Of a DNA stretch of 37,900 nucleotides, positions 1,820-21,870 are shown in pieces; positions within the stretch are counted from its first letter, which is position 1; every line of letters begins with the position of its first letter. The notes below the pieces were generated by a model. That model was not told the origin of the DNA. It did not search any database and saw nothing but the letters and a program-made list of their open reading frames with translations. The translations under genes and the position numbers were made by a program. Source of the stretch: Phycisphaerae bacterium (lineage in GTDB: Bacteria; Planctomycetota; Phycisphaerae; UBA1845); contig JAJDDX010000490.1 in the NCBI GenBank assembly GCA_029260055.1, positions 1-37,900 on the forward strand, read 5' to 3'.

Positions 1820-3460
1820 ATGACAACAGACACTCATTCTTCGCAGATACTGAAAGGCCCCGTTTTCGCCGATCGGCTGGCCGACGTGTGCCGAGCTGGG
1901 CTTCCTACTGTCGAGCCGCTCGACGGGCTGCGATACGCTAACATCCTCATTCCGCATCTGGTCGGCGGCGAATTGCCGTTCGCGTTACACGGCGTCGTGG
2001 GTCAAGCCCTCCGCATGCGCGGCGCCCAGGTCACCGCCTTAGTCTGCGACAGCATTTTGCCCGCCTGCGTGTCCCGTAAGGTGGACCACTACGAAAGCGC
2101 CTGCACGCGATGGTGCCACAGCAACGCGGAGCCCTTCGCACAGGCGATGGGACTGCCATGCCGTCTTCACAGCGAGTTCATCACGGAGGCGGAAATCGCC
2201 AGATGCGACCGGCTCGCCGAGTCCGCCGCCGAAGACGAGCTGGCCATCTTCAGTACCGACGGCATCGACTACGGACACCTGATCGTTCAGTCGGTGGAGA
2301 GTTTCTTCCGCGTCGGGAAGTACGATCCAACTGACGCCGAGATGGTCGCCAAGGCGCGCGACTTCCTGCGCAGCGCCCTCTACGTCACGATCATCGCAGA
2401 ACGAGCGTTCGACGAATTGCACGTCGACAAGGTGCTCACCGACTGCGGCCAGCAGGTCGAGTGGGGTGTCTTTAGAGCCGTGGCGAATAAACGCGGGATC
2501 CCGGTCGACGTGATCAACGTCGGCCTGAGGGGAAACGCGCTCAAGCTCGAGACGGACCGCCCCGGCGAACCGACACGGCAGGTGCCCGGTTGGGAAGTCT
2601 GGCGGGATCAGCCGCTGAACGACGAACAGAACGCGGCCCTTGATCAGTACCTCCACCGCCGAGAGAAGGTGCCCTACGAATTCAAGGACGAGAAGTGGCA
2701 GGGACGCATTAGCGATAAAGACGAGGTACGCCGCTTGATCGGACTGCCCGACGCTCCGTCCGGCAAGGTCTTCGCCATGTTCCCCAACGTGGGATTCGAC
2801 GCGGGAAAGACCAAGACTCGCCCGGCCTTCGACAACGCCGCCGATTGGGTCGTCGAGACCATCAATCGCTTTGCAGAACTCCCGGATCATCACTTGATCG
2901 TCAAAGTGCATCCGGGGGAGCTTCATCGTGCCGCGCTCGACCCAGTGGTCGATCTGATCGCACGGCGGTGTGAGCCGCTACCGCCTAACGTGCATTTGAT
3001 CGGCCCCGACACCGGCATTACCGCCCACAGTGTTCTCAGGCTGGCAGATGTAGCCCTCGTCTACACGTCGACAGTGGCGGCTGAGGCGGTCGGGCTCGGC
3101 AAACCCGTGATCCTGATCGGTGGCGGGCGGCACGCTGACCACGGCGTAACGACCGACGTACACGACTCGGCGGAATACTTTGGACTGCTCGATGACCTCG
3201 CGGCCGACCGACGGACGCTCGATTCACCCGGAGATCTCGGTCGCCGTTATGCCTACGCGGTCTTCTTCCGAGCGGACATCCCCATCGGGCACTTCCGAAT
3301 GCTCGATATTTACGTGGCTGATATGACGATCGACAGCCTTGCCGACGTGGCACCCGGACGGGATCGTTACATCGATTCCTTATGCCGTGGCGTACTGCTC
3401 GACGAGCCGTTTGAGAATCCGGACGCCCTCCACCCTGCCGCGGAGACCGCCGCACGATGA
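1820..3460 (+). CDS. Capsule/surface-polysaccharide glycosyltransferase-like protein (GT-B type)
   Basis: The 546-residue protein has an N-terminal half resembling the acceptor domain of capsule polysaccharide transferases. Its C-terminal half contains HLIVKVHPGE (about residues 355-364) and VHLIGPDTGITAHSVLRLAD (391-410), followed by ALVYTSTVAAEAVGLGKPVI. This Ser/Thr-rich loop plus E-A-x-x-x-G-K-P is the nucleotide-sugar site seen in Kps/Kdo-type and related GT-B enzymes. No signal peptide or membrane segment is evident, so it is probably cytosolic or peripheral. The gene ends in an ATGA overlap with the FkbM methyltransferase, implying co-translation. In this locus it is a candidate to transfer the CMP-sugar made by the downstream genes; that link is inference. 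Confidence 0.75.
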   Translation: MTTDTHSSQILKGPVFADRLADVCRAGLPTVEPLDGLRYANILIPHLVGGELPFALHGVVGQALRMRGAQVTALVCDSILPACVSRKVDHYESACTRWCHSNAEPFAQAMGLPCRLHSEFITEAEIARCDRLAESAAEDELAIFSTDGIDYGHLIVQSVESFFRVGKYDPTDAEMVAKARDFLRSALYVTIIAERAFDELHVDKVLTDCGQQVEWGVFRAVANKRGIPVDVINVGLRGNALKLETDRPGEPTRQVPGWEVWRDQPLNDEQNAALDQYLHRREKVPYEFKDEKWQGRISDKDEVRRLIGLPDAPSGKVFAMFPNVGFDAGKTKTRPAFDNAADWVVETINRFAELPDHHLIVKVHPGELHRAALDPVVDLIARRCEPLPPNVHLIGPDTGITAHSVLRLADVALVYTSTVAAEAVGLGKPVILIGGGRHADHGVTTDVHDSAEYFGLLDDLAADRRTLDSPGDLGRRYAYAVFFRADIPIGHFRMLDIYVADMTIDSLADVAPGRDRYIDSLCRGVLLDEPFENPDALHPAAETAAR

Positions 3461-4233
3461 CCGCCCACACAACACCGATCCCCCACTATCAGAAGGCGAT
3501 GGCGGCACATGGTGATCTGCCCGCGATGTCGGATGATGCGTACGTCGACCGCTTGCGTGCCCAGCAGCGAGCGATCGTGGAGTGTATCGACCGTGACCTC
3601 TGGGCCGATTCCACTTCGTGCGAGACCTTCACGGAGCTCTTCATCGAGAAGGCGACCACCTGCAAACTGTTCGTTGACGTGGGTGCCGAGGCCGGCTTCT
3701 ACACCTACCTGGCCCTTAAGCATATGCCGCGCTATGGCAGGATCATCGCGATTGAACCCGACCCCATCCGCTGCGCCCTGCTGCGCGAACTGTTCGCGCC
3801 GCACGCCCACATCGAGGTCCTCGAATTGGCAATCGCCAGTGCCACCGGAGCCGTAGAACTCGTCAAGCCGCGCGGGTGCTCAGCCACTCTCGCGCCGGTG
3901 GATGGTGAGAGCTTCACGGTTCCGGCCGCCGCCCTCGACGAGTTGCTGGGCGATCGCGAGGTCGATCTCATCAAGATGGACATCGAGGGGGCCGAGGCGG
4001 CGGCGTTCGACGGCATGCAGCGGATTCTGGCTCGCCGCCGGACGGAGGTGTTCCTCGAGTACCACCCCTGGATCGACACTATCACGCCCGGAGGCGTCGA
4101 CATGATGCATCAGATGCTCGCCGACGCTGCCTACCACATCTACCGAACCGACACTGGACGACCTGAGCGCGTCGAAAAGCTCGGCGGACGGGCCTACCTG
4201 GTGCCCGCGGCACGGGATGCGCTCCAGGCCTGA
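3457..4233 (+). CDS. FkbM family SAM-dependent methyltransferase
   Basis: The 258-residue protein overlaps the preceding stop by ATGA. The SAM-binding motif I is LFVDVGAEAGFYT (around residues 72-84), motif II is IIAIEPDP, and the FkbM hallmark DLIKMDIEGAEAAAFDGM follows, with FLEYHPW near the end of the fold. FkbM enzymes O-methylate sugars or polyketides, so this one probably methylates a hydroxyl on the surface glycan. A 189-bp gap follows it, the longest inside the cluster, so a new transcript could begin there. Family membership is confident; the methylated position is not predictable. Confidence 0.88.
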   Translation: MTAHTTPIPHYQKAMAAHGDLPAMSDDAYVDRLRAQQRAIVECIDRDLWADSTSCETFTELFIEKATTCKLFVDVGAEAGFYTYLALKHMPRYGRIIAIEPDPIRCALLRELFAPHAHIEVLELAIASATGAVELVKPRGCSATLAPVDGESFTVPAAALDELLGDREVDLIKMDIEGAEAAAFDGMQRILARRRTEVFLEYHPWIDTITPGGVDMMHQMLADAAYHIYRTDTGRPERVEKLGGRAYLVPAARDALQA

Positions 4234-4422
4234 ACCCCCCTTCCAGCATCGCGAACCAGCCTGACACCCCCTTCAGCCCCCGTTTTGTTTACAGATCCCC
4301 CATTTGACAGGCCGATAACAAACTAGGCGGACCGAACTCGCAAACGCGACTCGGCCACCGATTGGAGATCGTGCGCTCAGCGTCGGCCCACTCCGGGCGG
4401 ACGACAGGGAGGAGTTTGGACC

Positions 4423-5151
4423 ATGACGGCTGGAGCGGTAATACTGGCACGGATGTCGTCGAGGCGACTGCCGGGCAAGGTGCTGCGCCCGCTGGACGGC
4501 AGGCCGCTGATTGACCACGTCATCGACCGCGCCCGCCGAATCCCTTCCGCCCCGCGCCCCGTGGTCGCCACCTCGGACGACGCCGGCGATGATCGCCTGG
4601 CCGCCCACTGCCATTCGCGAGGCGTGAGCGTGTTTCGCGGCTCGCTGGACAACGTGGCCAAGCGCGTCCGCGACTGCGCCGAGACCCACGGGTGGGATTA
4701 CTTCGCCCGCATCAACGCCGACAGCCCGTTCCTGGATCCGCACTTAATCGAGCAGGGATTCCGGCGTGCGATCGATGACCGGCTGGACTTCGTCACCAAT
4801 CTTCAGCCTCGCACCTATCCGTACGGCATGAGCGTGGAGGTCTTCTCGACCGAGGCGTATCAGCGTGCGTTTGACCAAATGAGTAAGCCCGAAGACTGTG
4901 AGCACGTCAGCACGCTGTTCTACCGAAACTTGCACGCGTTCCGCTACGCGAACCTCGCCTGCCCCGACGCGCACGACACTGACGTGCATCTGACGGTAGA
5001 CAACGAGGCGGATTTCGCCCGTGCGGAGACCTTGATCCACCATCTCGGCGACGGGTACGTCCGTGCGCCGCTAGACCGAATCGTGACCGCCTACCGAACG
5101 TCCGTCGGAGACGACGAGGCGACACCCGTGACCGCTGTCAGCCAGACCTGA
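4423..5151 (+). CDS. SpsF-like cytidylyltransferase (CMP-sugar synthesis)
   Basis: The 242-residue protein opens with AVILARMSSRRLPGKVLRPL, the nucleotide-binding signature of the CMP-Kdo/CMP-NeuAc synthetase superfamily. The RINADSPFLDP segment (about residues 97-107) holds metal-binding acidic residues. Overall it looks most like SpsF (spore-coat polysaccharide protein) rather than classic NeuA or PseF. In this locus it would activate the NeuB product with CTP to a CMP-nonulosonate. A strong GGGAGGAG (4407-4414) precedes the ATG by 8 bases. Its 3' end is 12 bp from the pyruvyl transferase gene. The superfamily is sure; the exact sugar is inferred from neighbours. Confidence 0.82.
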   Translation: MTAGAVILARMSSRRLPGKVLRPLDGRPLIDHVIDRARRIPSAPRPVVATSDDAGDDRLAAHCHSRGVSVFRGSLDNVAKRVRDCAETHGWDYFARINADSPFLDPHLIEQGFRRAIDDRLDFVTNLQPRTYPYGMSVEVFSTEAYQRAFDQMSKPEDCEHVSTLFYRNLHAFRYANLACPDAHDTDVHLTVDNEADFARAETLIHHLGDGYVRAPLDRIVTAYRTSVGDDEATPVTAVSQT

Positions 5152-5163
5152 GAGGATCGCTCG

Positions 5164-6270
5164 ATGGTGAACATCTTCTGCATTCGGCCTCGAGGGTTCA
5201 ACATCGGCAACGATGTGATCTACCAGGGCACGCTTGGATTCCTGCAGCGTGCGTTCGGTTCACAGGTGAACGTCATCTCGCTGCCCGCGACCTCGCGCTA
5301 CGAAAGCCAGAGCAAAGCGGGGCTGACGCCACGAACGATCCACGAGATCAATCGTTACGGCCACGGCGTGGTCGTCGGCGGCGGGAACCTCTACGAGAAC
5401 GGCGAACTCGAAGTGGATCCCGGGGCGCTCGACGCCCTGCAGGTCCCGCTGCTCCTGTTCAGCCTGGGCTGGGGCAGAATCTACGACCGCCGCTACGAAC
5501 TCGTCCCGCGCACCGACGCGATGAGCCGCGACACGGTCCGTCTACTGGATGACAGGGCTTCCTATTCGCTCGCTCGCGACGAATCGACGGCCGACCACCT
5601 ACGTTCGCTCGGCTGCACCAAGGTGCGGGTCGGGGGCTGCCCCACGCTGTTCCTGGACCACGTCTTATCGCGGATACCCACGTTCGACGAGGCACCGGAA
5701 GTGCTCGTATCGGTCCGCACGCCCGAGTTGATGAACATCCCCCTGCCGGATCAAGCCCGCGTTCGGGCCGACACACTGACCATGCTCGACCTGCTGCGCA
5801 GCCGCGGTTACCGCGACATCAAGATGTTGGCCCACGACCACCGCGATCTGCCGTTCGCCGCCTCGTTTAACGGCATGGAGTACCTCTACACCGATGACGC
5901 GTTCACCTACTTGGGCTGGCTGCGGTCGTGCCGGCTCAGCATCGGCTATCGACTGCACGCGGCCTTGCCCTGCTTGTCGTTCGGAAGTCCGGCGATCTCG
6001 ATCAGTTACGACGAACGAGCCACGAGCTTGTTGGACACGATCGGTTTCGGCGCGTGGGACATCAACATGATCACGAATCGGGACGTCGGCGAACAACTGA
6101 GCGACCGACTCGATCGGTTGGACGAGCTGCCCCGGTTGCGTCAGGAAGCTCGGCCCCTGTGGTTAGCGCAAGAGCAAACGATGACCGACGCGTTTTCGAA
6201 CTTCGCACGCGACGCATCCGCCTTGGCACCGGAAATCGAAACGCCTTGCCTTCAAGGAGCGCACGCATGA
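5164..6270 (+). CDS. Polysaccharide pyruvyl transferase family protein
   Basis: The 368-residue protein has the features of the WcaK/CsaB family: an N-terminal GFNIGNDVIYQGTLGFL, a GGGNLYENGE glycine-rich loop, the repeated SLARDEST and GGCPTLFLD segments, and a C-terminal GYRLHAALPCLSFGSPAISI (roughly residues 260-280) that contains the conserved RLHA. Family members move a pyruvyl ketal from phosphoenolpyruvate onto a glycan, or act as glycosyltransferase-fold enzymes of related chemistry. The start ATG has a GAGAGGA just upstream, and the stop overlaps the NeuB start (ATGA at 6267-6270). The clear reading is a surface-glycan decorating enzyme; pyruvylation itself is not proven by sequence. 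Confidence 0.85.
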   Translation: MVNIFCIRPRGFNIGNDVIYQGTLGFLQRAFGSQVNVISLPATSRYESQSKAGLTPRTIHEINRYGHGVVVGGGNLYENGELEVDPGALDALQVPLLLFSLGWGRIYDRRYELVPRTDAMSRDTVRLLDDRASYSLARDESTADHLRSLGCTKVRVGGCPTLFLDHVLSRIPTFDEAPEVLVSVRTPELMNIPLPDQARVRADTLTMLDLLRSRGYRDIKMLAHDHRDLPFAASFNGMEYLYTDDAFTYLGWLRSCRLSIGYRLHAALPCLSFGSPAISISYDERATSLLDTIGFGAWDINMITNRDVGEQLSDRLDRLDELPRLRQEARPLWLAQEQTMTDAFSNFARDASALAPEIETPCLQGAHA

Positions 6271-7316
6271 GGTCCACAGGTCTCCATCTGATTGCCGAGG
6301 CCGGCACGAACCACAACCGGTGCGTCGCCACGGGAAAGAAGCTGATCGACGTCGGTCGAGCGGCCGGGGCCGACTCGGTCAAATTCCAGATGATCTGGCC
6401 GGAAGGACTCTATCTTCCCAAGTTCTACGCGGACGGCGTGTACAGCGAGTCCGAGGTGTTCGCTCAGCGAGCGGAAGGAGCGCTGTCGCCGGACGAGTTT
6501 CGAGAACTGGCTGCGCACTGCCGAGCCACCGGCATCGCCTTCAGCAGTTCGGTTTTCGATCGGACGGGCATTGCCCTCCTCGACGAGTTGGACGTGGAGT
6601 ACATCAAGATCGCCTCGTGCGACCTGAATAACTCGCCTTTGATCTGTGCGGCCGCGGAAACGGGCCGGCGGATCATTCTCTCGACGGGCATGTCAGCGCT
6701 AAAGGAAATCGAGCAGGCTGTCATGGACGTGCGAGCGACGGGAAACGACAACGTCGTGCTGATGCACTGTGTGTCGGTCTACCCCGCCCCGACTGAGCGG
6801 ATGAACCTCGGCTTCATCGACACGCTCAGGTCGAAGTTCGACTTCGAGGTCGGCCTCTCCGACCACACAGAGAGCCGCATCGCAGCCGCCATCGCGGTGT
6901 CCAAGGGCGTGACCTGGATCGAAAAGCACATCACGCTCGACCGCGCGTCGTCGGGGTTCGACCACGCCTACGCGATGGAGCCGGAATCGTTCGCTCAATA
7001 TGTCCGGGATGTTCGAGTCGCCGAAGAGGCTTGCACTTCGCCCCGGGACAAGGTGTTGCCCGAGGAGGCGACCGTTCGTCAGCGGGCACGGCGATCGCTG
7101 TATGCGTCTCGCGATATTGAAGCCGGCGAGACGATTCGAGAACAGGATGTATTGGTCGTGCGCCCGGAGGGCCCGCTTCGACCCAACGACCTGCCTCAGG
7201 TGCTCGGCTGCGCGGCGAGGCGGACCATACACCAGTATGAGGCTTTGCGGTGGGACGCGCTCGAGGCGGCCGCGAAGTCGTGCGCAGACACTCTTGCCAC
7301 GGAAACGGTCGGATGA
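6267..7316 (+). CDS. NeuB-family nonulosonate (sialic/pseudaminic/legionaminic acid) synthase
   Basis: The frame is open back to 5928, but family alignment and the ATGA overlap with the previous stop place the start at 6267, giving 349 residues. The N-terminal TIM barrel shows HLIAEAGTNHN, then ADSVKFQMIWPEGL, then EYIKIASCDLNN, then RRIILSTGMS and the metal/PEP-site GLSDHTES. The C-terminal ~65 residues are an SAF antifreeze-like domain (RSLYASRDIEAGETI...). The enzyme condenses phosphoenolpyruvate with an N-acetylated hexosamine to make a nine-carbon acid. With PseG next to it, the substrate is more likely a 2,4-diacetamido-trideoxyhexose (PseI/LegI-type) than ManNAc. Family very sure, substrate inferred. 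Confidence 0.93.
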   Translation: MRSTGLHLIAEAGTNHNRCVATGKKLIDVGRAAGADSVKFQMIWPEGLYLPKFYADGVYSESEVFAQRAEGALSPDEFRELAAHCRATGIAFSSSVFDRTGIALLDELDVEYIKIASCDLNNSPLICAAAETGRRIILSTGMSALKEIEQAVMDVRATGNDNVVLMHCVSVYPAPTERMNLGFIDTLRSKFDFEVGLSDHTESRIAAAIAVSKGVTWIEKHITLDRASSGFDHAYAMEPESFAQYVRDVRVAEEACTSPRDKVLPEEATVRQRARRSLYASRDIEAGETIREQDVLVVRPEGPLRPNDLPQVLGCAARRTIHQYEALRWDALEAAAKSCADTLATETVG

Positions 7317-8368
7317 CGCGTGTGGTCTTCATCTGTCGCGGCTCCGCGTCTATCGGACTCGGTCACGTCATGCGCTGCCGGACGATCGCCACGGAGATGA
7401 TGGCGTCAGCCGACGTACACGTGATCACCCTCGGCGACGCGACCGTTTGCGCCCACTTGCTCAGTCCGGTCGTACCGTTGACGCATGCCCACAGCGATCA
7501 CGAGGCTCAACGTATCGCCGGCAGGATGCACGCCGGCGTCGTGGCCTTCGATATGCTCGAATTCGATCGGGCGGCATTCGAGGGCATCAAGCGAACGGCG
7601 ACCACCGTGTGCTTGTCTCCGATCTTCAACTTGCTCGATCGGGTCGACCTCGCTTTCACCCGTGCAGCCTCCGACACGCACAGGCGCCTGATCGCAAGCG
7701 GAGGTTCGGCGGTACGCGCCGGCTGCCAATACACCACCATCAGCCCGCATTGCCGGCGCGTGGACACGAGTGACTACCGTCGCGGGTTGGCGATGGACCC
7801 TCTGGCGGTGGCAATCTCGATGGGCGGCGCTGACGCCCCCAACCTCACCTTGCGGCTACTCGAGGCCTTACGGAATGTCGATGCCGGCATGCTCTTCTGG
7901 GTGATGCTCGGGGAAGGCTACACGCACTCGTATCAGAAGCTCATTGATTGCGTGCGTGCCGATCGCCGCCACGAAATCATCCTCGCCAAGACGAACAACT
8001 CGATGTGGCGCATCCTGAGCGGCTGCAGCGTCGCTATTCTCGCCGGCGGGATCACTACGTTTGAGGCCGCGTACGCGGGCATCCCTTCGATCATCGCCCT
8101 GAGCCACGACAAAGATCGGTTCCTGATCCGTGAGTTGATCGATGGCGGCGCGTGCAAGTATGCCGGAGCGCCGTTCGAAAACGCTCTTGCCGGCATGGCG
8201 ACCTTACTCGGTCGTCTCAACCGAGACCGCGATGAACTGCTGCAGATGCACACACGCTGCAAGCGACTTCTCGACAACAAGGGCCCGCAGCGCGTGGTGC
8301 GCGAAATCCTCCAGTTCCGACGCCCGGGCGCAAAGACCAAGGAGGCCGTGCATTGCGCGTCGGTTTGA
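7313..8368 (+). CDS. pseG: PseG-like UDP-2,4-diacetamido-trideoxyhexose hydrolase
   Basis: The frame extends upstream to 7250, but the natural start is the ATG at 7313 in an ATGA overlap with neuB, giving 351 residues. The N terminus has CRGSASIGLGHVMRCRTIA, the glycine/His loop of PseG and its MurG-like GT-B fold. The C-terminal half has the AISMGGADAPNLTLRLLEAL and ILAGGITTFEAAYAGIPSII segments that bind the UDP moiety. The enzyme removes UDP from the acetamido sugar just before NeuB-type condensation. It is somewhat longer than typical PseG, with no added domain visible. Pseudaminic versus legionaminic stereochemistry cannot be decided here. Confidence 0.82.
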   Translation: MTRVVFICRGSASIGLGHVMRCRTIATEMMASADVHVITLGDATVCAHLLSPVVPLTHAHSDHEAQRIAGRMHAGVVAFDMLEFDRAAFEGIKRTATTVCLSPIFNLLDRVDLAFTRAASDTHRRLIASGGSAVRAGCQYTTISPHCRRVDTSDYRRGLAMDPLAVAISMGGADAPNLTLRLLEALRNVDAGMLFWVMLGEGYTHSYQKLIDCVRADRRHEIILAKTNNSMWRILSGCSVAILAGGITTFEAAYAGIPSIIALSHDKDRFLIRELIDGGACKYAGAPFENALAGMATLLGRLNRDRDELLQMHTRCKRLLDNKGPQRVVREILQFRRPGAKTKEAVHCASV

Positions 8369-8970
8369 TCGATTACGGCGCCGGCAACCAAGCCAGCGTC
8401 CGCAATGCGCTCGAGCACATCGGAGCGTCGCCCGTCATGGTCGCCGCGCCTGGCGACTTCGATCGCGCAACCCACCTGGTGCTTCCCGGCGTCGGCGCTT
8501 TCAGCACAGCCATGGCTCAGCTCGAGCAGCGCGGCCTCGTGGAGGCGCTTCGGCTTCACGCCGGCGCAGAGGGCAAGCCGCTGCTGGGGGTGTGCGTCGG
8601 CATGCAGATACTGGCGCGGGTCGGGTATGAATTCGAAGCTCGCGAGGGACTCGGGCTGATCAACGCGACCGTTCGCACGATCGACGTGAGTGCCACCGGA
8701 CACCGTCTGCCGCACATCGGATGGAACGAGGTCACGGTCACCCGCGACTGCCCGCTGTTCGATGACATGCGTCAGCCGACGTTCTATTTCGCTCACAGCT
8801 ACGCGTGTGAGCCTGATGACGATGCGGACGCCGTGGCCACATGTGACTACGGCGCGGGCGTGGTCGCGGTGGTTCAAAAGGACAATGTGTTCGGGGTACA
8901 GTTCCATCCCGAAAAGAGCCAGCACGACGGCCTGCAGTTGCTGCGGAACTTCGTACGGCTGGCGGCCTGA
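8353..8970 (+). CDS. hisH: HisH-type glutamine amidotransferase subunit
   Basis: The 205-residue protein starts at TTG 8353, 16 bases inside the pseG gene; no ATG in this frame precedes the conserved VGLIDYGAGNQASV. It has a complete class I glutaminase triad: Cys81 in LGVCVGMQ, His185 and Glu187 in FHPEKS. HisH hydrolyses glutamine and passes ammonia to a HisF partner, which is encoded next. Because the partner is the HisF2 type and the following gene is a sugar amidotransferase, this copy is probably dedicated to acetamidino-sugar synthesis rather than histidine. Key residues are intact, so it should be active. Confidence 0.93.
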   Translation: MRVGLIDYGAGNQASVRNALEHIGASPVMVAAPGDFDRATHLVLPGVGAFSTAMAQLEQRGLVEALRLHAGAEGKPLLGVCVGMQILARVGYEFEAREGLGLINATVRTIDVSATGHRLPHIGWNEVTVTRDCPLFDDMRQPTFYFAHSYACEPDDDADAVATCDYGAGVVAVVQKDNVFGVQFHPEKSQHDGLQLLRNFVRLAA

Positions 8971-9009
8971 AGCTTGGCGATGCGGGCGGAGGCTCGTACC
9001 TGAGAAACC

Positions 9010-9876
9010 ATGCTCAAGACTCGACTCATACCGTGCGTGCTGCTTCGCAACGGGCTCGTGGTCCAGAGCAAGGGTTTCCGGCGCTATCAGCTACTTGGGA
9101 ACCCGACGACGGTCGTGCAACGGCTCAGCGATTGGGCCTGCGACGAACTGATCTACCTGGACATCTCGAAAGACGCATCTTACGACCTGGGCCGCGACGA
9201 TCTGAACCACCCAAACCGGAGCGATATTCTCGACATCATCTCCGATGTCGCTCGGCGCTGCTTCATGCCGTTGACCTTCGGCGGTCATATTCGCACGCTC
9301 GATGACGCTGCGGCCCGCATACAGCGCGGCGCCGACAAGATCGCGATCAACACACAGGCCTGCCGTGAGCCGGAGTTCATTACCAAATGCTCCCGCGCGT
9401 TCGGTGCGCAGTGCGTGGTGGTCTCCATCGACGTGCGCGGTGATGTGGCAAGCGGCTGGCGGGTCCACACCGATGGAGGTCGTGAGGCGGCCGGGCGATG
9501 CCCCGTCGAGTGGGCTCGCCAAGTCGAGCAACTCGGCGCCGGCGAAATCCTGATCAACTCGATCGATCGCGACGGGCTCGGGCAAGGTTACGATTTGGAA
9601 CTAGTCGCGGCGGTCGCGGCGGCGGTGACCATCCCGGTCATCTGCCTCGGCGGCGTGGGCACGTGGGATCACTTAGCCGATGCCATGCGCGCCACCGACG
9701 TCAGCGCGGTGGCGGCCGCCAACATCTTTCATTATTCGGAAAACAGCGTCTACAACGCCAAGAAGTACCTGTACGAAGCCGGGATGAACGTCCGCCGGCC
9801 GGAGCTACTCACAACCGAATCCGTCGAGGAGAAGCCGTCATGCGCTATTGCCAGCGGTGCGTGTACCCCGAAGTAG
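9010..9876 (+). CDS. hisF: AglZ/HisF2-family acetamidino modification protein (HisF paralogue)
   Basis: The 288-residue TIM-barrel protein is plainly HisF-like: LIPCVLLRNGLVVQSKGF at the N terminus, MPLTFGGHIRTLDDAAARI, the phosphate-binding GADKIAIN, and VVSIDVRG. The first catalytic Asp of true HisF (the D of the CLDVKDG motif) is replaced by Leu (CVLLRNG), while the later Asp in SIDVRG is kept. That pattern is known in HisF2 proteins that channel ammonia to a PP-loop amidotransferase instead of closing the imidazole ring. The last 37 bases overlap the amidotransferase gene, implying tight coupling. Loss of cyclase activity is inferred from the replaced residue. Confidence 0.88.
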   Translation: MLKTRLIPCVLLRNGLVVQSKGFRRYQLLGNPTTVVQRLSDWACDELIYLDISKDASYDLGRDDLNHPNRSDILDIISDVARRCFMPLTFGGHIRTLDDAAARIQRGADKIAINTQACREPEFITKCSRAFGAQCVVVSIDVRGDVASGWRVHTDGGREAAGRCPVEWARQVEQLGAGEILINSIDRDGLGQGYDLELVAAVAAAVTIPVICLGGVGTWDHLADAMRATDVSAVAAANIFHYSENSVYNAKKYLYEAGMNVRRPELLTTESVEEKPSCAIASGACTPK

Positions 9877-10979
9877 CCGTCAACAACATGTTCGATGACG
9901 AGGGCGTCTGCAGCGCCTGTCGCGTCGCCGAGGAGTTCGCCCAGCTCACGCCCGAGTTCTGGCACCAGCGCGAAGCCAAGTTCCGCGAGATCGTCGAAGA
10001 GGCTCGCACCAAAGCGCGTGGCGACTACCACTGCATCATCCCGGTCAGCGGCGGCAAGGACAGCTACTGGCAGACCTATCTGATCAAAGAGGTGTACAAG
10101 CTCAATCCCCTGCTGGTTACATACCACGGCAACAACTATCTACCGGAAGGGCAGGGCAACCTCGACCGCATGCGCGATGCCTTCGGCGTGGACCACCTCG
10201 TGTTCGGCCCCGGGGTAGCCACCTTGCGAAAGCTGAATCGCCTGGGATTCAGGAAGATGGGTGACATGAACTGGCACTGCCACACGGGCATCAAGATCGT
10301 GCCGATGCAGATCGCCGTGCGGTTCGGCATTCCGCTGGTCGTGTGGGGCGAGACCACGTGGACCATCGCCGGCATGTTCAGCCCGGATGACTACGTGGAG
10401 TACAACAAGCGGACGGTACTCGAACACGACATGCGCGGCTTCACGTGGCGCGATATGATCGAGGAGTCCGAGGGGCTCACGGAAAACGACATGACCTGGG
10501 CCAAGATGCCGTCCGATGCCGAATTGGACCACCTCGGCGTACGAGGCATCTACGTCGGTAACTTCTTCAACTGGGACCCCAACCGCCACGCCGAGAAGAT
10601 GCAGCGTGAATACGGCTTCGAATTCGCTCGTCAACCGTTTGATCGAACGTACCGGCACATGTCCAACCTCGACGACATGCACGAGAACGGCTTGCACGAC
10701 TACATGAAATTCATCAAGTTCGGCTACGGCCGGGCGTCCGACCACGCGAGCAAGGACATCCGCAGCGGCGACATGACGCGCGAACAGGGCATCGAAATGG
10801 TCCGCAACTATGACCACGTCAAACCGCGCGACCTCACCAGATGGCTCGAATACGTGGAGATGACTGAAGACGAGTTCGACCGTATCGCCGACACGTTCCG
10901 CGACCACCGCGTGTGGCGCCAAGAAGGCGGCGAGTGGATCAAGGGCAACATCTGGGACGGAGCGACCTGCTGTGCGTGA
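9840..10979 (+). CDS. N-acetyl sugar amidotransferase (PseA/WbpG family)
   Basis: The frame is open back to 9498, but the family N terminus MRYCQRCVYPE begins at ATG 9840, giving 379 residues. Cys4/Cys7 and the later CSAC pair look like a small metal site. The PP-loop is SGGKDS at residues 70-75, which adenylates the acetamido oxygen. The rest (GNFFNWDPN, FVRQPF-like and HDYMKFIKFGYGRASDH segments) matches the WbpG/PseA group. With ammonia from HisH/HisF2 it would turn an N-acetyl group of the sugar into an acetamidino group. Confidence in family and pathway role is high; which nitrogen is modified is not known. Confidence 0.92.
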   Translation: MRYCQRCVYPEVAVNNMFDDEGVCSACRVAEEFAQLTPEFWHQREAKFREIVEEARTKARGDYHCIIPVSGGKDSYWQTYLIKEVYKLNPLLVTYHGNNYLPEGQGNLDRMRDAFGVDHLVFGPGVATLRKLNRLGFRKMGDMNWHCHTGIKIVPMQIAVRFGIPLVVWGETTWTIAGMFSPDDYVEYNKRTVLEHDMRGFTWRDMIEESEGLTENDMTWAKMPSDAELDHLGVRGIYVGNFFNWDPNRHAEKMQREYGFEFARQPFDRTYRHMSNLDDMHENGLHDYMKFIKFGYGRASDHASKDIRSGDMTREQGIEMVRNYDHVKPRDLTRWLEYVEMTEDEFDRIADTFRDHRVWRQEGGEWIKGNIWDGATCCA

Positions 10980-11967
10980 GGAACAGATTCGACCCGCAGC
11001 ATTGATGGAACGCAAGCGCGGTTGCGTCGATCGCGACCGGCAGTTCCTGCTGGATCGACAAGACCGCTTCGTGCGCGTCCCTTGCCCTGCCTGCGAGGGC
11101 ACTGACCTCGGACCGGCACTGACGAAAAACGGGTTCAAGTACGAGCGATGCCGCGAGTGCGAGACCGTCCTGATGAACCCTCGCGCCGACCAGGAACTCA
11201 TGCACGAATTCTACGCCACATCAGCCAACTACGCATTCTGGAATGAGCACGTGTTCCCCGCCACAGAGGAGAGCCGACGCGAGAACATCATGCGTCCTCG
11301 CGCCGAGAAGCTACGGTCAATCTGCCGGAAGCGCGGCCTGTCGCACGGAACCGCTCTCGAGGTCGGCGCCGGATTCGGGACGTTCTGTGAGGAACTTCAG
11401 CGGCTGGAACTCTTCGATCGGGTGATCGCTCTGGAACCAACGGCGGGACTCGCGCAAACATGCCGTGACAAAGGACTCACGACGGTCGAAGCGCCAATCG
11501 AGGATTGCGACCTTCCCGAAGCCAGCATGTCACTCGTAGCAGCCTTCGAGGTGATCGAGCACCTGTTCCGCCCCGCCCAAGTCGTGGCTCACGCCGCCCG
11601 ACTACTCCGACCGGGTGGGCTGCTCGTCCTGTCGTGCCCAAACATCAAGGGTTTCGACATCGCCACGCTCGGCACGCTGTCCAACAGCATCGACCACGAG
11701 CACGTCAACTACTTCCATCCGAAGTCGATCGCCCTACTTCTGACACGGCTCGGCCTGACAGTGCTGGAAGTGCTCACCCCGGGCAAACTGGACGCCGACC
11801 TCGTGCGAAAAGCCGCGCTCGCCGGGCAAATCGACCTGGCCGGCCAACCGCTGTTAAACCGACTGCTCATCGAGGACTGGGACCGGCTCGGCGAGCCGTT
11901 CCAGGACTTCCTCGCAACCAACGCGCTGTCCGGCCACATGTGGGTCGTGGCTCAGCACGGCCAATAG
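10972..11967 (+). CDS. Class I SAM-dependent methyltransferase with N-terminal zinc ribbon
   Basis: The 331-residue protein starts at GTG 10972 (8 bases inside the previous gene); ATG 11005 is a possible alternative. A CPAC...CREC four-cysteine ribbon lies at about residues 33-66. The methyltransferase fold follows: motif I ALEVGAGFGTF, then VIALEPT, FEVIEHLFRP, and LLRPGGLLVLSCPN. This ribbon-plus-methyltransferase layout (Methyltransf_13/23/14-like) is common in nucleotide-sugar and O-antigen loci. It is the last gene of the glycan cluster and ends in a hairpin that spans its stop codon. Substrate unknown; probably the sugar or the assembled glycan. Confidence 0.82.
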   Translation: MREEQIRPAALMERKRGCVDRDRQFLLDRQDRFVRVPCPACEGTDLGPALTKNGFKYERCRECETVLMNPRADQELMHEFYATSANYAFWNEHVFPATEESRRENIMRPRAEKLRSICRKRGLSHGTALEVGAGFGTFCEELQRLELFDRVIALEPTAGLAQTCRDKGLTTVEAPIEDCDLPEASMSLVAAFEVIEHLFRPAQVVAHAARLLRPGGLLVLSCPNIKGFDIATLGTLSNSIDHEHVNYFHPKSIALLLTRLGLTVLEVLTPGKLDADLVRKAALAGQIDLAGQPLLNRLLIEDWDRLGEPFQDFLATNALSGHMWVVAQHGQ

Positions 11968-11981
11968 CCCGGCTATCGGCC
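11959..11981 (+). terminator. Hairpin at the end of the glycan cluster
   Basis: GGCC-A-ATAGC-CCG-GCTAT-C-GGCC forms a stem of 5+4 base pairs with one mismatch and a 3-base loop, overlapping the stop codon at 11965-11967. No U-run follows, so it may be a weak or Rho-assisted end, or an RNA-stabilising hairpin. Confidence 0.4.
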
Positions 11982-12088
11982 TGCTCGCCGCGCTCTCGGC
12001 CGGCAGTCCCGTGGCGATATATCCCGAACACCCCTTAGCGCTCGTGCCCCAAATAGGATACGATTGCCGTCTTGACAAGTCGGCACCC

Positions 12089-12092
12089 GGAG
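12089..12092 (+). promoter_or_regulatory. Shine-Dalgarno for the sigma factor gene
   Basis: GGAG sits 6 bases before ATG 12099 and favours that start over the upstream in-frame TTG at 12072. Confidence 0.5.
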
Positions 12093-12098
12093 TCGCAG

Positions 12099-12680
12099 AT
12101 GACGCAGCCGCAGGCAGATGAGGTTACGCGGATCCTCCGTGAGGTGAACTCGGGACGGCAGCGGGTCGAGGAGAAGCTCCTGCCGCTGGTCTACGACGAA
12201 CTCCACAAGATCGCGCAAGCCAAGATGGCCACGGAACGCCCCGGCCACACCCTGCAAGCCACCGGGCTGGTTCACGAGGCATGCCTCAAGCTCCTGGGCA
12301 GCACGGACGTGGAGTGGGCGAATCGCGCGCATTTCTTCTTTGCAGCCGCCGAGGCCATGCGCCGCATCCTTATCGACCACGCTAGACGACGGGGGCGGAA
12401 GAAACGGGGCGGGGATCTCGTTCGTGTGCCGCTTGATGTTGCCACGCTCACGTCTGACGATGATCCCGGGCGAATTCTGGCCCTCGACGAGGCGATTCGG
12501 CGCTTGGAACAGCAGGACGAGCGGATGGCCCAAGTCGTTCACCTTCGGTTCTTCGTCGGCCTGAGCATCGCTCAGGCCGCATTGACCATGGGTATCTCCG
12601 AGCGCGCCGTGAAGCGCGAGTGGGCTTTCGCTCGAGCGTGGCTGTACCGCGCACTCCGGAAGGAAGGTCTTGGTCCGTAA
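12099..12680 (+). CDS. ECF RNA polymerase sigma factor (planctomycete Sigma70-ECF type)
   Basis: The 193-residue protein has the region 2 segment KLLPLVYDELHKIAQAKM, the characteristic LQATGLVHEACLKLL, and FFFAAAEAMRRILIDHARRR with a basic run, then a region 4 helix-turn-helix LSIAQAALTMGISERAVKREW. This is the TIGR02999-like group abundant in Planctomycetota and some Acidobacteriota/Myxococcota. The ATG at 12099 fits the family N terminus and a GGAG Shine-Dalgarno; TTG 12072 would add nine residues. It is followed after 20 bp by a Ser/Thr kinase, the usual partner. The kinase probably controls the sigma factor by phosphorylation; no anti-sigma gene is visible. Confidence 0.92.
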   Translation: MTQPQADEVTRILREVNSGRQRVEEKLLPLVYDELHKIAQAKMATERPGHTLQATGLVHEACLKLLGSTDVEWANRAHFFFAAAEAMRRILIDHARRRGRKKRGGDLVRVPLDVATLTSDDDPGRILALDEAIRRLEQQDERMAQVVHLRFFVGLSIAQAALTMGISERAVKREWAFARAWLYRALRKEGLGP

Positions 12681-12700
12681 TCGGAAGGAACACCGACGCG

Positions 12701-15310
12701 ATGGACTCCACACGGTGGAACCAGGTCAAGGAGTTGTTCAGCAAGGCGCTCGTGCTGGACACGGCGCAGCGAGCCGAATTCCTAGCCTCGCAGTGCGGCT
12801 CGGACAGCTCCCTGCGCGGACAAGTCGAGGCACTCCTGACGGCACACAGCGACGCTGACGGCTTTCTAACGCCGCCGGAGAGTGGCGTACTCGATATCGA
12901 GCAGTCCGCCCGCCCCGCCGAAACCATCCCGCCTTCCGAGGCGTGGCTGAGCAAGACCATAGATCGGTACAAGTTGGTCCGCAAAATCGGGGAGGGCGGA
13001 TTCGGCACAGTCTACCTGGCCGAGCAAGTGGAGCCTGTCCGGCGCCAGGTTGCGCTGAAGATCATCAAACCGGGGATGGACACCAAGCAGGTAGTCGCCC
13101 GTTTCGAGGTCGAGAGGCAGGCCTTGGCGATGATGGATCATCCTCACATCGCCAGGGTGCTTGATGCCGGCTCGACGGAGGCGGGCCGGCCCTACTTCGT
13201 CATGGAACTCGTCAAGGGCGTGACCATCACCAAGTATTGCGACGACAACCACCTCACTACTGACGCGAGACTCGAACTGTTCATCCGCGTCTGCGGCGCG
13301 GTCCAGCACGCCCACCAAAAGGGCATCATCCATCGCGACCTCAAACCTTCGAATGTCATGGTGACGCTTCGCGATGGCAAACCGGTGCCCAAGGTCATCG
13401 ACTTCGGCGTGGCGAGGGCCACGAGTCAGCGGCTCACGGAAAAAACGGTCTTCACCGAACTCGGGCAGCTCATCGGCACACCGATCTACATGAGCCCCGA
13501 ACAGGCCGAGTTGACCGGCCTGGATGTCGATACGCGCACCGACATCTACTCGCTCGGCGTGTTGCTCTATGAGCTACTGGTCGGCACCACACCATTCGAT
13601 CTGAAGCGGCTGCGCGAGGCGGGATTCGCGGAGATCCAGCGCATCATACGAGAGGAAGAACCGCCGAAACCCAGCACTCGCCTCAGTTCGCTGACCGAAG
13701 AAGCCACGGACATCGCCAAGCATCGCAAGATCGAGCCGGCCGCGCTCGGTAGGATCGTGCGCGGCGATCTCGACTGGATCGCGATGAAGGCGCTGGAGAA
13801 AGACCGCACCAGACGCTACGAGACGGCCGATGGGCTTGCCCTCGATATTCGTCGCCACTTGGGCAACGAACCGGTGACAGCCGGAGCGCCGAGCGCTTCG
13901 TACCGCGCCGTCAAGTTCATCCGCAGACACAGAGTCGGGGTGACGGCGGCGATTCTCGTGTCTTGCGCGCTCGTTCTCGGGGCCGCGGGAACGACATACC
14001 AGGCGTTCCGCGCGAGAGGCGCCGAGGCGCGTGCCACGCGACATCTCGAGGTCCAGCGTGCGGTCACCGCAATACTTCGGTCGACGCTCACCTCGCCCAA
14101 CCCCGACGTGGACGGGGCCGACGTGCGCGTGGTGACGGTCGTCGATCGTACGGCGCGCCAACTACCGGCGTTGGCAGAAGGCCAGCCGGAGGTCGAGGCC
14201 GCCGTCCGCGCCATCATCGGCGAAACGTACCTCAACCTGGCCCGTTTCGATGAGGCCGAACCAAACCTGAAACGGGCACTCGAACTCCGAAAAGAGCTAT
14301 ATGGCGAGGACCATCTCGACGTAGCCGAAAGCCTCTTTCAAATGGGGCGGCTGCTGAGGGAACGCGATGATCTCGACGCGGCGGAGGCAAGCTACCGGCG
14401 GAGCCTGGCGATCCGTGAACAGCACCTCGGCCCGCGGCACGCACTCGTTGGCCTGACCGCCCATTCCGTGGGAATCGTCCTGCTCAGGGAGTCCAAGCTC
14501 GAGGAAGCTGAGGCATATCTGCGGCGCTCGCTTGATACGGGCCGCTGCGAAGGAGCGACTCGGGACCCCGAGTGTGCCACGACCATGACCGTCCTCGGCA
14601 AACTGCTCGGACGCAGAGGGGAATACGACGACGCCGAACCGTTACATCGGGAGGCGCTGGCGATCTATCGCGGCACCCACGGGAACGAACACATAACGGT
14701 AGCGCGCGCGTTGGGCAATCTGGCGTCCCTGCTTGGACGAATGAACCGGCTCGATGATGCGGAGGATGCGGCGCGCGAGGCGCTGGCGATCGGGCACGCA
14801 GCCTATGGCGGCAATGAGATCGCCAGGGCGTCAGATCTCACCGTCCTTGCCGCCATACTCAACAAGAAGAAGGAACACGCAGAGGCCGAAGCGCTGCTCG
14901 AAGAAGCCCTGTCGATCTATGTTTCGGTCTACGGCGAGAGCCACTCGTATGTCGCGGGGGTACGTCTTCGACTCGCCGAAGTGCGCGATGACCGCGGCGA
15001 AAGCGAAGCCGCCGCCAAGTCGTTTCAAGACGTCGTGAACATGTACATCGGCGCCCACGGAGCCGATGATTGGCGGGTAGCCGTCGCGCGTAGTCGACTC
15101 GGCGCCTGCCTCACAGGGCTTGAACGATACGAGGAAGCCGAGCGCAACCTGCTCAGCGCTCACGCGGTGCTGTCAGCCGGCGGCTACCTTCCCAAGGCCG
15201 GTGAGGCCGCATCCCGGCTGTCCGACCTGTACGACGCGTGGCAGAAGCCCGAAAGCGCCGCGAAATGGCGGGCGCTCAGCGAGAAGGAAGCGACCGGAGA
15301 GGGCCACTGA
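12701..15310 (+). CDS. Membrane Ser/Thr protein kinase with C-terminal TPR (kinesin light chain-like) repeats
   Basis: The frame extends back to 12620 inside the sigma gene, but ATG 12701 begins the family N terminus (MDSTRWNQVKELFSKAL), giving 869 residues. An N-terminal helical region of ~85 residues is followed by a Hanks kinase domain from about residue 88: ATP loop GEGGFG, HRDLKPSN with His211-Asp213, DFG at 234, and GTPIYMSPEQ activation segment. A single membrane helix lies near residues 411-433. The outer part holds many TPRs of 40-42-residue spacing (KLEEAEAYLRRSL, EYDDAEPLHREAL and similar). All catalytic residues are present. It probably senses something through the TPRs and signals to the adjacent ECF sigma factor. 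Confidence 0.94.
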   Translation: MDSTRWNQVKELFSKALVLDTAQRAEFLASQCGSDSSLRGQVEALLTAHSDADGFLTPPESGVLDIEQSARPAETIPPSEAWLSKTIDRYKLVRKIGEGGFGTVYLAEQVEPVRRQVALKIIKPGMDTKQVVARFEVERQALAMMDHPHIARVLDAGSTEAGRPYFVMELVKGVTITKYCDDNHLTTDARLELFIRVCGAVQHAHQKGIIHRDLKPSNVMVTLRDGKPVPKVIDFGVARATSQRLTEKTVFTELGQLIGTPIYMSPEQAELTGLDVDTRTDIYSLGVLLYELLVGTTPFDLKRLREAGFAEIQRIIREEEPPKPSTRLSSLTEEATDIAKHRKIEPAALGRIVRGDLDWIAMKALEKDRTRRYETADGLALDIRRHLGNEPVTAGAPSASYRAVKFIRRHRVGVTAAILVSCALVLGAAGTTYQAFRARGAEARATRHLEVQRAVTAILRSTLTSPNPDVDGADVRVVTVVDRTARQLPALAEGQPEVEAAVRAIIGETYLNLARFDEAEPNLKRALELRKELYGEDHLDVAESLFQMGRLLRERDDLDAAEASYRRSLAIREQHLGPRHALVGLTAHSVGIVLLRESKLEEAEAYLRRSLDTGRCEGATRDPECATTMTVLGKLLGRRGEYDDAEPLHREALAIYRGTHGNEHITVARALGNLASLLGRMNRLDDAEDAAREALAIGHAAYGGNEIARASDLTVLAAILNKKKEHAEAEALLEEALSIYVSVYGESHSYVAGVRLRLAEVRDDRGESEAAAKSFQDVVNMYIGAHGADDWRVAVARSRLGACLTGLERYEEAERNLLSAHAVLSAGGYLPKAGEAASRLSDLYDAWQKPESAAKWRALSEKEATGEGH

Positions 15311-15394
15311 GGCCTCGGCGAATAGGCCAGCCCCAGGCCCAGCCGCCACTGGTGCCTCGCCCCGACCCGACCCTCGTCCAAACGCCCGACTCGC
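15311..15394. other. Gap downstream of the kinase
   Basis: A short GGCCT/AGGCC inverted repeat (15311-15315 with 15324-15328, 8-base loop) starts directly after the kinase stop; it lacks a U-run and is only a weak terminator candidate. Nothing else is seen. Confidence 0.3.
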
Positions 15395-15634
15395 TCAGCC
15401 GCTTGTGCCATCCGGCTCCGAAGCGTGCGGACACAGGCCAAAGGCTCTGCCGAATTCGGACAGCCGTATCGCGACCTCGGTCGATAGGATGTCGGGCGGT
15501 TGATCGTCCCCGTCCTTAGGCGGTTCGCTGGCAATCCAATCGGTGGCCACGGCGTTCCAAGGCTTGTCCGCGATGTCCTCCTGCCTCAAACGCTGAGTAA
15601 TCCAGGCGATCATCTTCTCATTCGTTTCGCTCAT
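15395..15634 (-). CDS. Small hypothetical protein, 79 residues
   Basis: I do not recognise this protein. It starts at ATG (complement of 15632-15634) preceded by GAGGG four bases upstream, a plausible but close ribosome site. The N terminus MSETNEKMIAWITQRLRQED is a soluble-looking helix, followed by a Pro/Asp-rich stretch with PPKDGDD and a C-terminal helix. No signal peptide, membrane segment or cysteine motif. No other credible frame occupies this stretch, and its composition looks more protein-like than the shadow frames. It is convergent with the kinase and shares strand with the S9 peptidases. May be real; could equally be chance. Confidence 0.45.
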   Translation of the reverse strand: MSETNEKMIAWITQRLRQEDIADKPWNAVATDWIASEPPKDGDDQPPDILSTEVAIRLSEFGRAFGLCPHASEPDGTSG

Positions 15635-15909
15635 AACACCCTCGATGTGTCAGCTAGCCGACGTGATGATGGCGGCGACTGGGCCGCCATACGACTGGTA
15701 TGAGGTTACCTAATCACGCGATCGGACACAAGAGCGGCCCCGCGGTCCATCCCGGGATGCCAACGCCGGACCGGCGGCACTGGTACGAGCCCCTCGAAAC
15801 ACCCAAGGCACTCGGCGATTGGCACCGGGCCCTCCTCGCAGCACGGGTACTGCCCGGCTACGTGCGCGTCGTCACGAATTACTAGTCGTCGTCAAGCCAC
15901 AATCGCCGC
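15635..15909. other. Intergenic stretch without a supported gene
   Basis: A 61-codon frame on the + strand (15700-15885) exists but has no ribosome site and no recognisable motif. No clear hairpin or promoter is seen either. Confidence 0.4.
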
Positions 15910-18387: not shown

Positions 18388-18395
18388 GGTGTCTG

Positions 18396-18401
18396 CCTCC
18401 T
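18396..18401 (-). promoter_or_regulatory. Consensus Shine-Dalgarno fixing a GTG start
   Basis: The minus strand reads AGGAGG here, 8 bases before GTG at 18387. No ATG lies nearby in frame before the signal peptide, so this motif settles the start. Confidence 0.75.
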
Positions 18402-18452
18402 GTTTGAACCGCCACGAATCAGACCTTACAAGACCACAATCGCGCGTTGCAT

Positions 18453-18469
18453 CGGCGCCTCCTGCGCCG
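18453..18469 (-). terminator. Small hairpin after the prolyl oligopeptidase gene
   Basis: CGGCGC and GCGCCG pair across a 5-base loop just beyond the S9A stop codon. There is no U-run, so it may attenuate or stabilise the RNA rather than end it. Confidence 0.3.
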
Positions 18470-18472
18470 GGA

Positions 18473-20626: not shown

Positions 20627-20949
20627 CGTGGATTCCTCCCTCTATTGACGCCCGCGCGCCACGGAATGTCTTGTCAGCACCGTGCCCCAGCGAGTCGCGA
20701 GCTTTCGAATTGTCCGATCGCCCCGCCGCGTGGTCTCCGGCCCAAGGTGCAAGGATACTCGTTGCAGCCCATCGACGGAAGCTGTTTCGGCAGTTGCGCC
20801 GGCCACAGCCGGTATCCTTCTCACTGGCCTAATCCAAGATAAGTTGGTATCAAGCCGCATGGCCTTTCTGCTGCAGCCTGGAAAGAGCGAGACAGGTATG
20901 GACAGTATGTGTCACGAATAAACGCGCCGAGCCCTGGAATACGTATCCG
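20627..20949. other. Divergent intergenic region (S9A peptidase / ABC operon)
   Basis: These 323 bases must hold the promoters for both directions. I found no convincing -35/-10 pair on either strand and no operator-like palindrome. No coding frame with family resemblance is seen. Confidence 0.5.
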
Positions 20950-21870
20950 TTGAACGCTTTCAGTTGTAAAAACCTGTCGAAGCACTACGGCCGCATCACC
21001 GCACTGCGCGAGGTCTCGCTTTCGGTCGAGCCCGGCCTCGTCGGGCTGCTCGGACCCAACGGAGCGGGCAAGAGCACGCTGATCAGCGTACTGCTCGGGC
21101 AAACGCCGGGCACATCCGGACAAGCTTCGGTGCTCGAACTTGATGTCCGCAGGCAGCAAAGCAAGATCAGGCGCCGCGTCGGCTTCATGCCCGAGAACGA
21201 TTGCCTGATCCCCGGCCTGACCGGCACCGGTTACGTCTACTACACGGGCAAGCTGGCCGGCATGTCGCACGGCGACTCGATGCAGCGGACCCACGAAGTC
21301 CTCGACTACGTCGCGCTGGACGAAGCGCGGTACCGACCGGCCGAGCAGTACTCCGCGGGCATGAGGCAACGGCTGAAACTCGCTCAAGCCTTGGTTCACG
21401 ATCCCGATCTACTTTTCCTCGACGAACCAACCAACGGCATGGACCCCGACGGCCGCCGTACGATGCTCTCACTGATTACCGACCTCGGACGAGCCGGAGT
21501 CTCAGTCTTGCTCTCCAGTCACGTGCTCCCCGACGTGGAACGGGTGTGCGAGCGTGTCATCATCATGGGCGGAGGCGAGGTGCTGACCACCGGGCGCATC
21601 GACGAATTGAACGAGCCTCATCCCACGCTGTACGGCGTCGATTTCACGGGCGATGCCGCGGCGCTCACCACGCGGCTGGCTGAGCGCAAGGTGTCAATCC
21701 TCGAGCACACCGACGGCCGCCTGAACATCGAGCTTCCCGACGAAGGCGCCCAGGCCGCCGTCCTCGAAGCGGCGCGTGACGCGGGCGCGACCTTGCACGG
21801 GCTGCACCCCAAGCGCAGCTCACTCGAGGAGACGTTCCTGACGGCTTTGAAGAAGCAGGGGGCCGCATGA
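20950..21870 (+). CDS. ABC transporter ATP-binding protein 1 (ABC-2 type exporter)
   Basis: The 306-residue ATPase starts at TTG 20950; no ATG precedes the conserved FSCKNLSKHYG. Walker A is GPNGAGKST at residues 35-43, the signature is YSAGMRQRLKLAQ from 134, and Walker B is LLFLDEPTNGMDP with Asp158-Glu159. A Gln loop and the final SSHVLPD switch are present. The C-terminal ~90 residues form the extra domain of NatA/CcmA-type exporters. The stop overlaps the permease start (ATGA). Together with the next three genes it forms an ABC-2 export system; substrate unknown. Confidence 0.92.
   Translation: MNAFSCKNLSKHYGRITALREVSLSVEPGLVGLLGPNGAGKSTLISVLLGQTPGTSGQASVLELDVRRQQSKIRRRVGFMPENDCLIPGLTGTGYVYYTGKLAGMSHGDSMQRTHEVLDYVALDEARYRPAEQYSAGMRQRLKLAQALVHDPDLLFLDEPTNGMDPDGRRTMLSLITDLGRAGVSVLLSSHVLPDVERVCERVIIMGGGEVLTTGRIDELNEPHPTLYGVDFTGDAAALTTRLAERKVSILEHTDGRLNIELPDEGAQAAVLEAARDAGATLHGLHPKRSSLEETFLTALKKQGAA

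Follow-up and report, generated by a model that had tools for sequence, protein, structure and literature searches.

A contig of 37,900 nucleotides from a Phycisphaerae bacterium (JAJDDX010000490.1 of assembly GCA_029260055.1; hereafter the window, meaning the whole stretch analysed) encodes an eight-gene operon at 4423-11967 (+), in the order SpsF-PyrTr-NeuB-PseG-HisH2-HisF2-WbuX-MTase, PyrTr denoting a polysaccharide pyruvyl transferase homologue and MTase a methyltransferase. Judging from its sequence, this operon probably serves to make a nine-carbon nonulosonate that bears an acetamidino group and is activated with CMP. Depending on the precursor, the product may be pseudaminic-like, legionaminic-like or a new nonulosonate. 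The unusual feature is the fixed set of eight genes, which is found in five planctomycete genomes.

Composition and conservation of the operon

The window is an entire contig (C434) of the host genome (G000; 7.63 Mb in 500 contigs), and the cassette begins 4.4 kb into it. Families were called with Pfam and NCBIfam models against the window proteins, with the equivalog cut-offs as pass mark. The initial annotation had listed seven contiguous, largely overlapping genes at 4423-10979; all seven are present on the (+) strand and belong to the families then named, and the overlaps appear once gene starts are corrected to the conserved N-termini (NeuB 6267, PseG 7313, HisH2 8353, WbuX 9840). The first gene encodes an SpsF/KdsB-like cytidylyltransferase predicted to activate the nonulosonate with CMP (4423-5151), followed after 12 bases by the PF04230 pyruvyl transferase homologue (5164-6270), a NeuB-family nonulosonate synthase with a SAF domain (6267-7316, overlapping by 4 bases), a PseG/SpsG-like nucleotide-sugar hydrolase (7313-8368, 4 bases) and a HisH-type glutaminase, the predicted ammonia source (8353-8970, 16 bases). 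After a gap of 39 bases come a HisF2/WbuZ barrel, the predicted ammonia channel (9010-9876), and a WbuX/WbpG/PseA N-acetyl sugar amidotransferase (9840-10979, 37 bases). The earlier list omitted an eighth member, an S-adenosylmethionine (SAM) methyltransferase with a zinc-ribbon-like N-terminus (10972-11967) that overlaps WbuX by 8 bases and is a predicted amidine N-methyltransferase.

The WbuX clade is the strongest guide to function. The window WbuX exceeds the TIGR03573 cut-off (314.1 versus 203.2 bits) and carries a PP-loop, SGGKDS, and the CxxC pairs YCQRC and CSAC, all common to the planctomycete locus L081. Its identity to non-planctomycete clade members is 51 to 62%, and the other members occur across phyla, mostly in nonulosonate clusters that also hold NeuB, a dehydratase, and PseC-like genes. 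Given this identity and this setting, the acetamido group recognised by WbuX is probably the same one, carried on a similar sugar, even though the backbone enzymes differ. HisH2 likewise exceeds its cut-off (TIGR01855, 216.7 versus 105.4 bits), with motifs GVCVGMQ and FHPEK intact. HisF2 scores below the cut-offs of WbuZ (TIGR03572, 255.7 of 299.7 bits) and AglZ/HisF2 (215.9 of 310), WbuZ still being the best model, and has Leu where true HisF has the catalytic Asp11. With this trio beside NeuB, a linkage kept in five planctomycete genomes, the CMP-activated nonulosonate with an acetamidino branch that was proposed initially is well supported.

A locus scan of 84,980 species genomes with the window WbuX as query returned 29 loci, four of them from planctomycetes: L097 in PL25a_bin.13 (the same locus as L081), L098 in the complete genome of Pan216, and L099 and L124 in metagenome-assembled genomes (MAGs) of Pirellulaceae. 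Homologues of all eight genes were found in all four, with identities to the window genes of 40 to 46% for SpsF, 52 to 55% for PyrTr, 51 to 56% for NeuB, 41 to 43% for PseG, 50 to 54% for HisH2, 55 to 61% for HisF2, 68 to 71% for WbuX, and 50 to 55% for MTase. The window gene order is kept in three of them, the set in L097 being divided into two divergent blocks. An additional gene lies between HisH2 and HisF2 in L098 and L099, the L098 copy exceeding the TIGR04371 cut-off (putative sugar O-methyltransferase). With all eight genes together again in these four genomes, largely in one order, chance association is excluded. The planctomycete host was borne out as well, G100, a cassette genome ranked as belonging to the same phylum, being a Planctomycetota MAG, and a misbinned contig was rejected, given a GC content of 0.63 and tetranucleotide correlations of 0.89 to 0.96 against ten further contigs from the host assembly. 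In the L124 cassette, a PhyH-type dioxygenase (8513-9607) lies between WbuX and MTase.

Predicted pathway and identity of the sugar

Every reaction of the proposed pathway is inferred. The PseG/SpsG-like hydrolase would take the nucleotide off a 2-acetamido sugar that the rest of the cell provides, NeuB would condense the free sugar with phosphoenolpyruvate, and the SpsF-like enzyme would add CMP. HisH2 would release ammonia from glutamine and HisF2 would channel it to WbuX, where the N-acetyl amide would be activated and converted to an acetamidino group. MTase would then probably N-methylate the amidine, and the probable role of the PF04230 protein is to pyruvylate either this sugar or one next to it in the completed glycan.

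Family matches and phylogeny place the synthase among true NeuB-family enzymes rather than the unrelated aldolases that had been considered. PF03102 (235.3 bits) and SAF (34.1 bits) both match, and the motifs HCVS, SDHT, EKH, and DHAYAMEP are conserved. Scores fall below the NeuB and PseI equivalog cut-offs (PseI 251.3 of 340.25 bits). The five planctomycete sequences form their own clade in the tree (support 100/100) on a long stem, and the clade of pseudaminic synthases (100/99), which includes the solved PseI 8h2c, excludes them. The nearest reference is SpsE, weakly, and the best PDB match is also SpsE (1vli, 34% identity). PseG scores 92.2 bits against a TIGR03590 cut-off of 153.55, conserves the motif GLGHV.R, and is only 23% identical to the PseG of locus L080; its predicted structure is poor (predicted local distance difference test score, pLDDT, 68), the informative C-terminal half being MurG-like (Z 18.8, root-mean-square deviation [rmsd] 3.2, 179 aligned residues). 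The SpsF-like protein matches CTP_transf_3 (86.7 versus 22.6 bits), with the KdsB and PseF models far below cut-off. The cassette has this PseG-type hydrolase instead of the hydrolysing 2-epimerase NeuC/LegG. A NeuC gene is found at a second nonulosonate locus of the host genome (L008, contig C298, 7968-10910), where NeuA-NeuB-NeuC adjoins a sigma-factor gene and NeuB is 38% identical to that of the window.

PyrTr matches PS_pyruv_trans (88.1 bits versus a gathering score of 25.3), has the invariant motif YR.H..LPC..FG.P.I..SYDER, and is flanked by SpsF and NeuB in each of the five cassettes. When a profile of the five sequences was run against 392 genomes of the phylum, scores above 650 bits were confined to the cassette genomes G000 and G100, with one distant match at 111 bits. 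The predicted structure is a confident glycosyltransferase B (GT-B) fold (pLDDT 85), a fold common to many enzymes. Searches of the PDB by sequence and by profile gave no match to PyrTr, and the fold search gave general GT-B matches only, Pvg1p being absent among the matches listed. The initial annotation had called the sugar possibly pyruvylated: the linkage in five of five cassettes is firmer than that wording, but the GT-B model does not establish pyruvyl transfer.

MTase matches Methyltransf_23 (64.3 bits) and stays beside the trio in loci of planctomycetes and Pseudomonas, at 43 to 55% identity. It directly follows WbuX in the window and in L097, L098, L099, L103, L107, L109, L119, and L120, stands one gene further on in L124, and precedes WbuX in L122; in all, loci of planctomycetes, Pseudomonas, Omnitrophota, and Giovannonibacteria have it adjacent to the trio or inside it. 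Amidine N-methylation is our best guess for this protein, probable by analogy and assigned by gene neighbourhood, because PtmH/ORF8 N-methylates CMP-Leg5Am7Ac at its amidine (PMC3766260, PMC13306086).

Several results weigh against the acetamidino-nonulosonate assignment. NeuB, PseG, SpsF, and HisF2 all fall short of equivalog cut-offs; the PyrTr model is nearest to UDP-N-acetylglucosamine (UDP-GlcNAc) 2-epimerases (Z 19.0, rmsd 4.2, 306 aligned residues), so that its fold does not discriminate pyruvyl transfer; and early-step genes were found neither in nor beside the cassettes, except for a DegT aminotransferase near that of L097.

The alternative that survives best, to which we give somewhat less than an even chance, is an ordinary pseudaminic or legionaminic derivative made from UDP-GlcNAc, the first three steps being encoded elsewhere or performed by Pen/Pal-like dehydratases. 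The link of the WbuX clade with pseudaminic clusters speaks for it, and in an approximately unbiased (AU) test a single clade of the window NeuB and the pseudaminic synthases was not rejected (p-AU 0.22), joining to NeuC-linked synthases being borderline (p-AU 0.045), although these p values are soft, the groups having been named after the first tree was seen. There is precedent in Bacillus subtilis, in which the gene for the dehydratase SpsM is unlinked (PMC7439481), and in Bacillus thuringiensis, in which Pen and Pal stand in for PseB (PMC5109656). The host genome also has early-step candidates, namely a PglF/CapD-like dehydratase (contig C273), DegT aminotransferases (C109 and C407), and a NeuD/PglD acyltransferase (C329), none linked to the cassette, and the cassette genome G395 has PglF-like dehydratases. 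The host candidates may instead serve the NeuA-NeuB-NeuC locus on C298.

Against such a derivative stands the position of NeuB outside the pseudaminic clade, together with the search for early steps. No protein of the host genome exceeded the PseB or PseC equivalog cut-offs (PseB 180.7 of 407.75 bits, PseC 339.7 of 423.5), which were exceeded in the controls Pseudomonas oryzihabitans (PseB 536.9, PseC 545.6 bits) and G352 (PseB 503). No PseB/PglF-type dehydratase was found in the cassette genomes G392, G393, and G394, the best PseB scores being 49 to 56 bits, and the short-chain dehydrogenases/reductases that were read in these genomes carry the usual signatures of epimerases or RmlB but neither STDKA nor M-x3-K, which mark the PseB/PglF group. 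Absence from G393 is informative, this being a complete chromosome; G392 and G394 are MAGs. The PseH model reached 30.8 bits in the host genome and had no match in G393 or G395, but it is a weak model, and no genome searched, the Pseudomonas control included, exceeded its cut-off. Absence of the early-step genes, raised initially as a refutation, thus holds for the PseB/PglF-type dehydratase in three of five cassette genomes, one of them complete, but not for the window's own genome, with its candidates on other contigs. Given the NeuB clade, the subthreshold NeuB and PseG scores, and the dehydratase missing from those three, the pseudaminic/legionaminic identity first assigned was not supported. 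The precursor may come by a Pen/Pal-type route, which needs no PseB, or by a dTDP-sugar route. More tentatively, and in our estimate rather doubtfully, the product could be an undescribed nonulosonate built without a PseB/PglF-type UDP-GlcNAc 4,6-dehydratase, with its acetamidino group N-methylated and a pyruvyl transferase of its own encoded in the same operon.

It is improbable that the trio amidinates a hexose, with the nonulosonate genes as coincidental neighbours. WbpG-type trios act on ManNAc3NAc-uronic acid in Pseudomonas aeruginosa, where WbpG/HisH2/HisF2 offer the model of a 2,3-diacetamido-uronic acid substrate; a nucleotide-sugar dehydrogenase does lie beside the DegT aminotransferase on C407, and 11 of 24 planctomycete genomes with WbuX lack NeuB in the stretch read. 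However, the trio shares one overlapping operon with NeuB and PseG, kept together in five genomes, and the WbuX clade resides mainly in nonulosonate clusters across phyla. That HisH and HisF are simply the cell's histidine enzymes, incidentally placed, is extremely improbable: a HisF model at E 0.001 matched only the window HisF2 in the whole host genome, leaving no second HisF-like gene and none over cut-off, but Asp11 is replaced by Leu, WbuZ is the best model, and HisA, expected to cross-match, was not found either, so the host may not synthesise histidine or these genes may be absent from the assembly.

Wider distribution and flanking genes

Among 392 planctomycete genomes, WbuX exceeded its cut-off in 24, of which 13 (the window's and 12 others) have NeuB nearby in the stretches read, and members of the WbuX clade also occur in Patescibacteria, Omnitrophota, Nitrospirota, and Ignavibacteria. 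By these sequence matches the acetamidino trio is not exotic in Planctomycetota, which weakens the earlier statement that such sugars are described mainly from flagellins and LPS of Proteobacteria and Campylobacterota. In G352, from the window's own class, PseB and PseC (both over cut-off), a NeuA-like cytidylyltransferase, WbuX, HisH2, HisF2, a PseG-like gene, and NeuB stand in a row. In 396 other genomes of the class, a profile of the window WbuX gave no score close to that of the window WbuX itself, and the 20 same-family genomes listed had no match. This patchy occurrence of the window's variety of cassette fits horizontal transfer or loss. The cassette was not described in the literature found on planctomycete pseudaminic or nonulosonic genes or on pyruvylated nonulosonates, which is weak evidence, as subscription journals were thinly covered.

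Other arrangements were seen. L123 (Peregrinibacteria, 2573-21000) has two complete WbuX-HisH-HisF sets side by side, one with PseG-type and one with NeuC-type nonulosonate genes. At the planctomycete locus L070 (G040, contig C22), WbuX occurs as an adjacent pair and NeuB twice, and an acetamidino-nonulosonate cluster occurs in L118 (CAMCFD010000002.1), titled a Rickettsia typhi MAG, a name that is probably wrong.

Upstream of the cassette lie three genes for which counterparts were sought in the other planctomycete cassettes; none was found. The product of 1820-3460 (+; 546 residues) has weak matches to Capsule_synth, UDP-GlcNAc 2-epimerase, and KpsC. It is a possible GT-B glycosyltransferase whose link to the cassette is uncertain and, KpsC being a CMP-Kdo transferase, a candidate transferase using the CMP-sugar. 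An FkbM-family methyltransferase (3457-4233, +; TIGR01444, 85.1 bits) is also of uncertain membership. A radical SAM/SPASM protein (797-1774) has similar ones in the nonulosonate loci L101, L102, L106, L115, and L121, and in L106 one such gene overlaps NeuB and another comes after WbuX; the window protein might act in such clusters as a sugar-modifying enzyme. Elsewhere in the window, the protein encoded at 31163-34624 (1153 residues) contains at least four protease inhibitor domains of the Kazal type, and the same contig has two prolyl oligopeptidase-family genes (15910-18387 and 18473-20626, -).

Comparison with known systems

Nonulosonates decorate bacterial surfaces; in planctomycetes, knowledge of them comes chiefly from sugars measured in bulk in anammox sludge, whose nonulosonates were reportedly described by Kleikamp in 2020 and Boleij in 2020. 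A compact operon in a complete genome (Pan216) offers a handle on the identity of the sugar and on the roles of the amidine, methyl, and pyruvyl groups. If the dehydratase is truly missing, how the amino-sugar precursor is made becomes a further question. The conserved neighbourhood further gives testable functions to the methyltransferase family beside WbuX in several phyla.

Like CsaB and WcaK, PyrTr belongs to PF04230 and shares the C-terminal R-x-H motif region; unlike them, it is always within this nonulosonate operon, and it scores only 46.9 of 213.1 bits with the CsaB model and 29.3 of 727.1 with WcaK. B. subtilis uses SpsC/D/G/E/F to produce legionaminic acid and to activate it, the dehydratase SpsM being encoded elsewhere (PMC7439481). 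The window similarly groups NeuB-, PseG-, and SpsF-type enzymes with any dehydratase gene elsewhere, but it lacks a linked aminotransferase or acetyltransferase, adds the trio, PyrTr, and MTase, and has a NeuB only 34% identical to SpsE. Closer at the 3' end are the clusters of P. oryzihabitans (PseB-PseC-PseF-PseG-PseI-HisH2-HisF2-WbuX-MTase), P. otitidis, and P. rhizoryzae, which share its gene order there and are 61% (WbuX), 56 to 58% (HisF2), 46 to 48% (HisH2), and 43 to 47% (MTase) identical, the window WbuX nesting in the same clade. In contrast, the Pseudomonas clusters include PseB and PseC, have no PyrTr, and encode a NeuB of the pseudaminic clade that is 34 to 35% identical. The legionaminic 5-acetamidino branch of Legionella and Campylobacter also proceeds from an acetamidino nonulosonate to an N-methyltransferase, ORF8/PtmH (PMC3766260, PMC13306086), but differs in its nonulosonate backbone enzymes, and MTase is likened to ORF8/PtmH by gene neighbourhood. 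From these comparisons the operon is predicted to be a planctomycete version of the acetamidino-nonulosonate pathway that has its own pyruvyl transferase homologue and methyltransferase.

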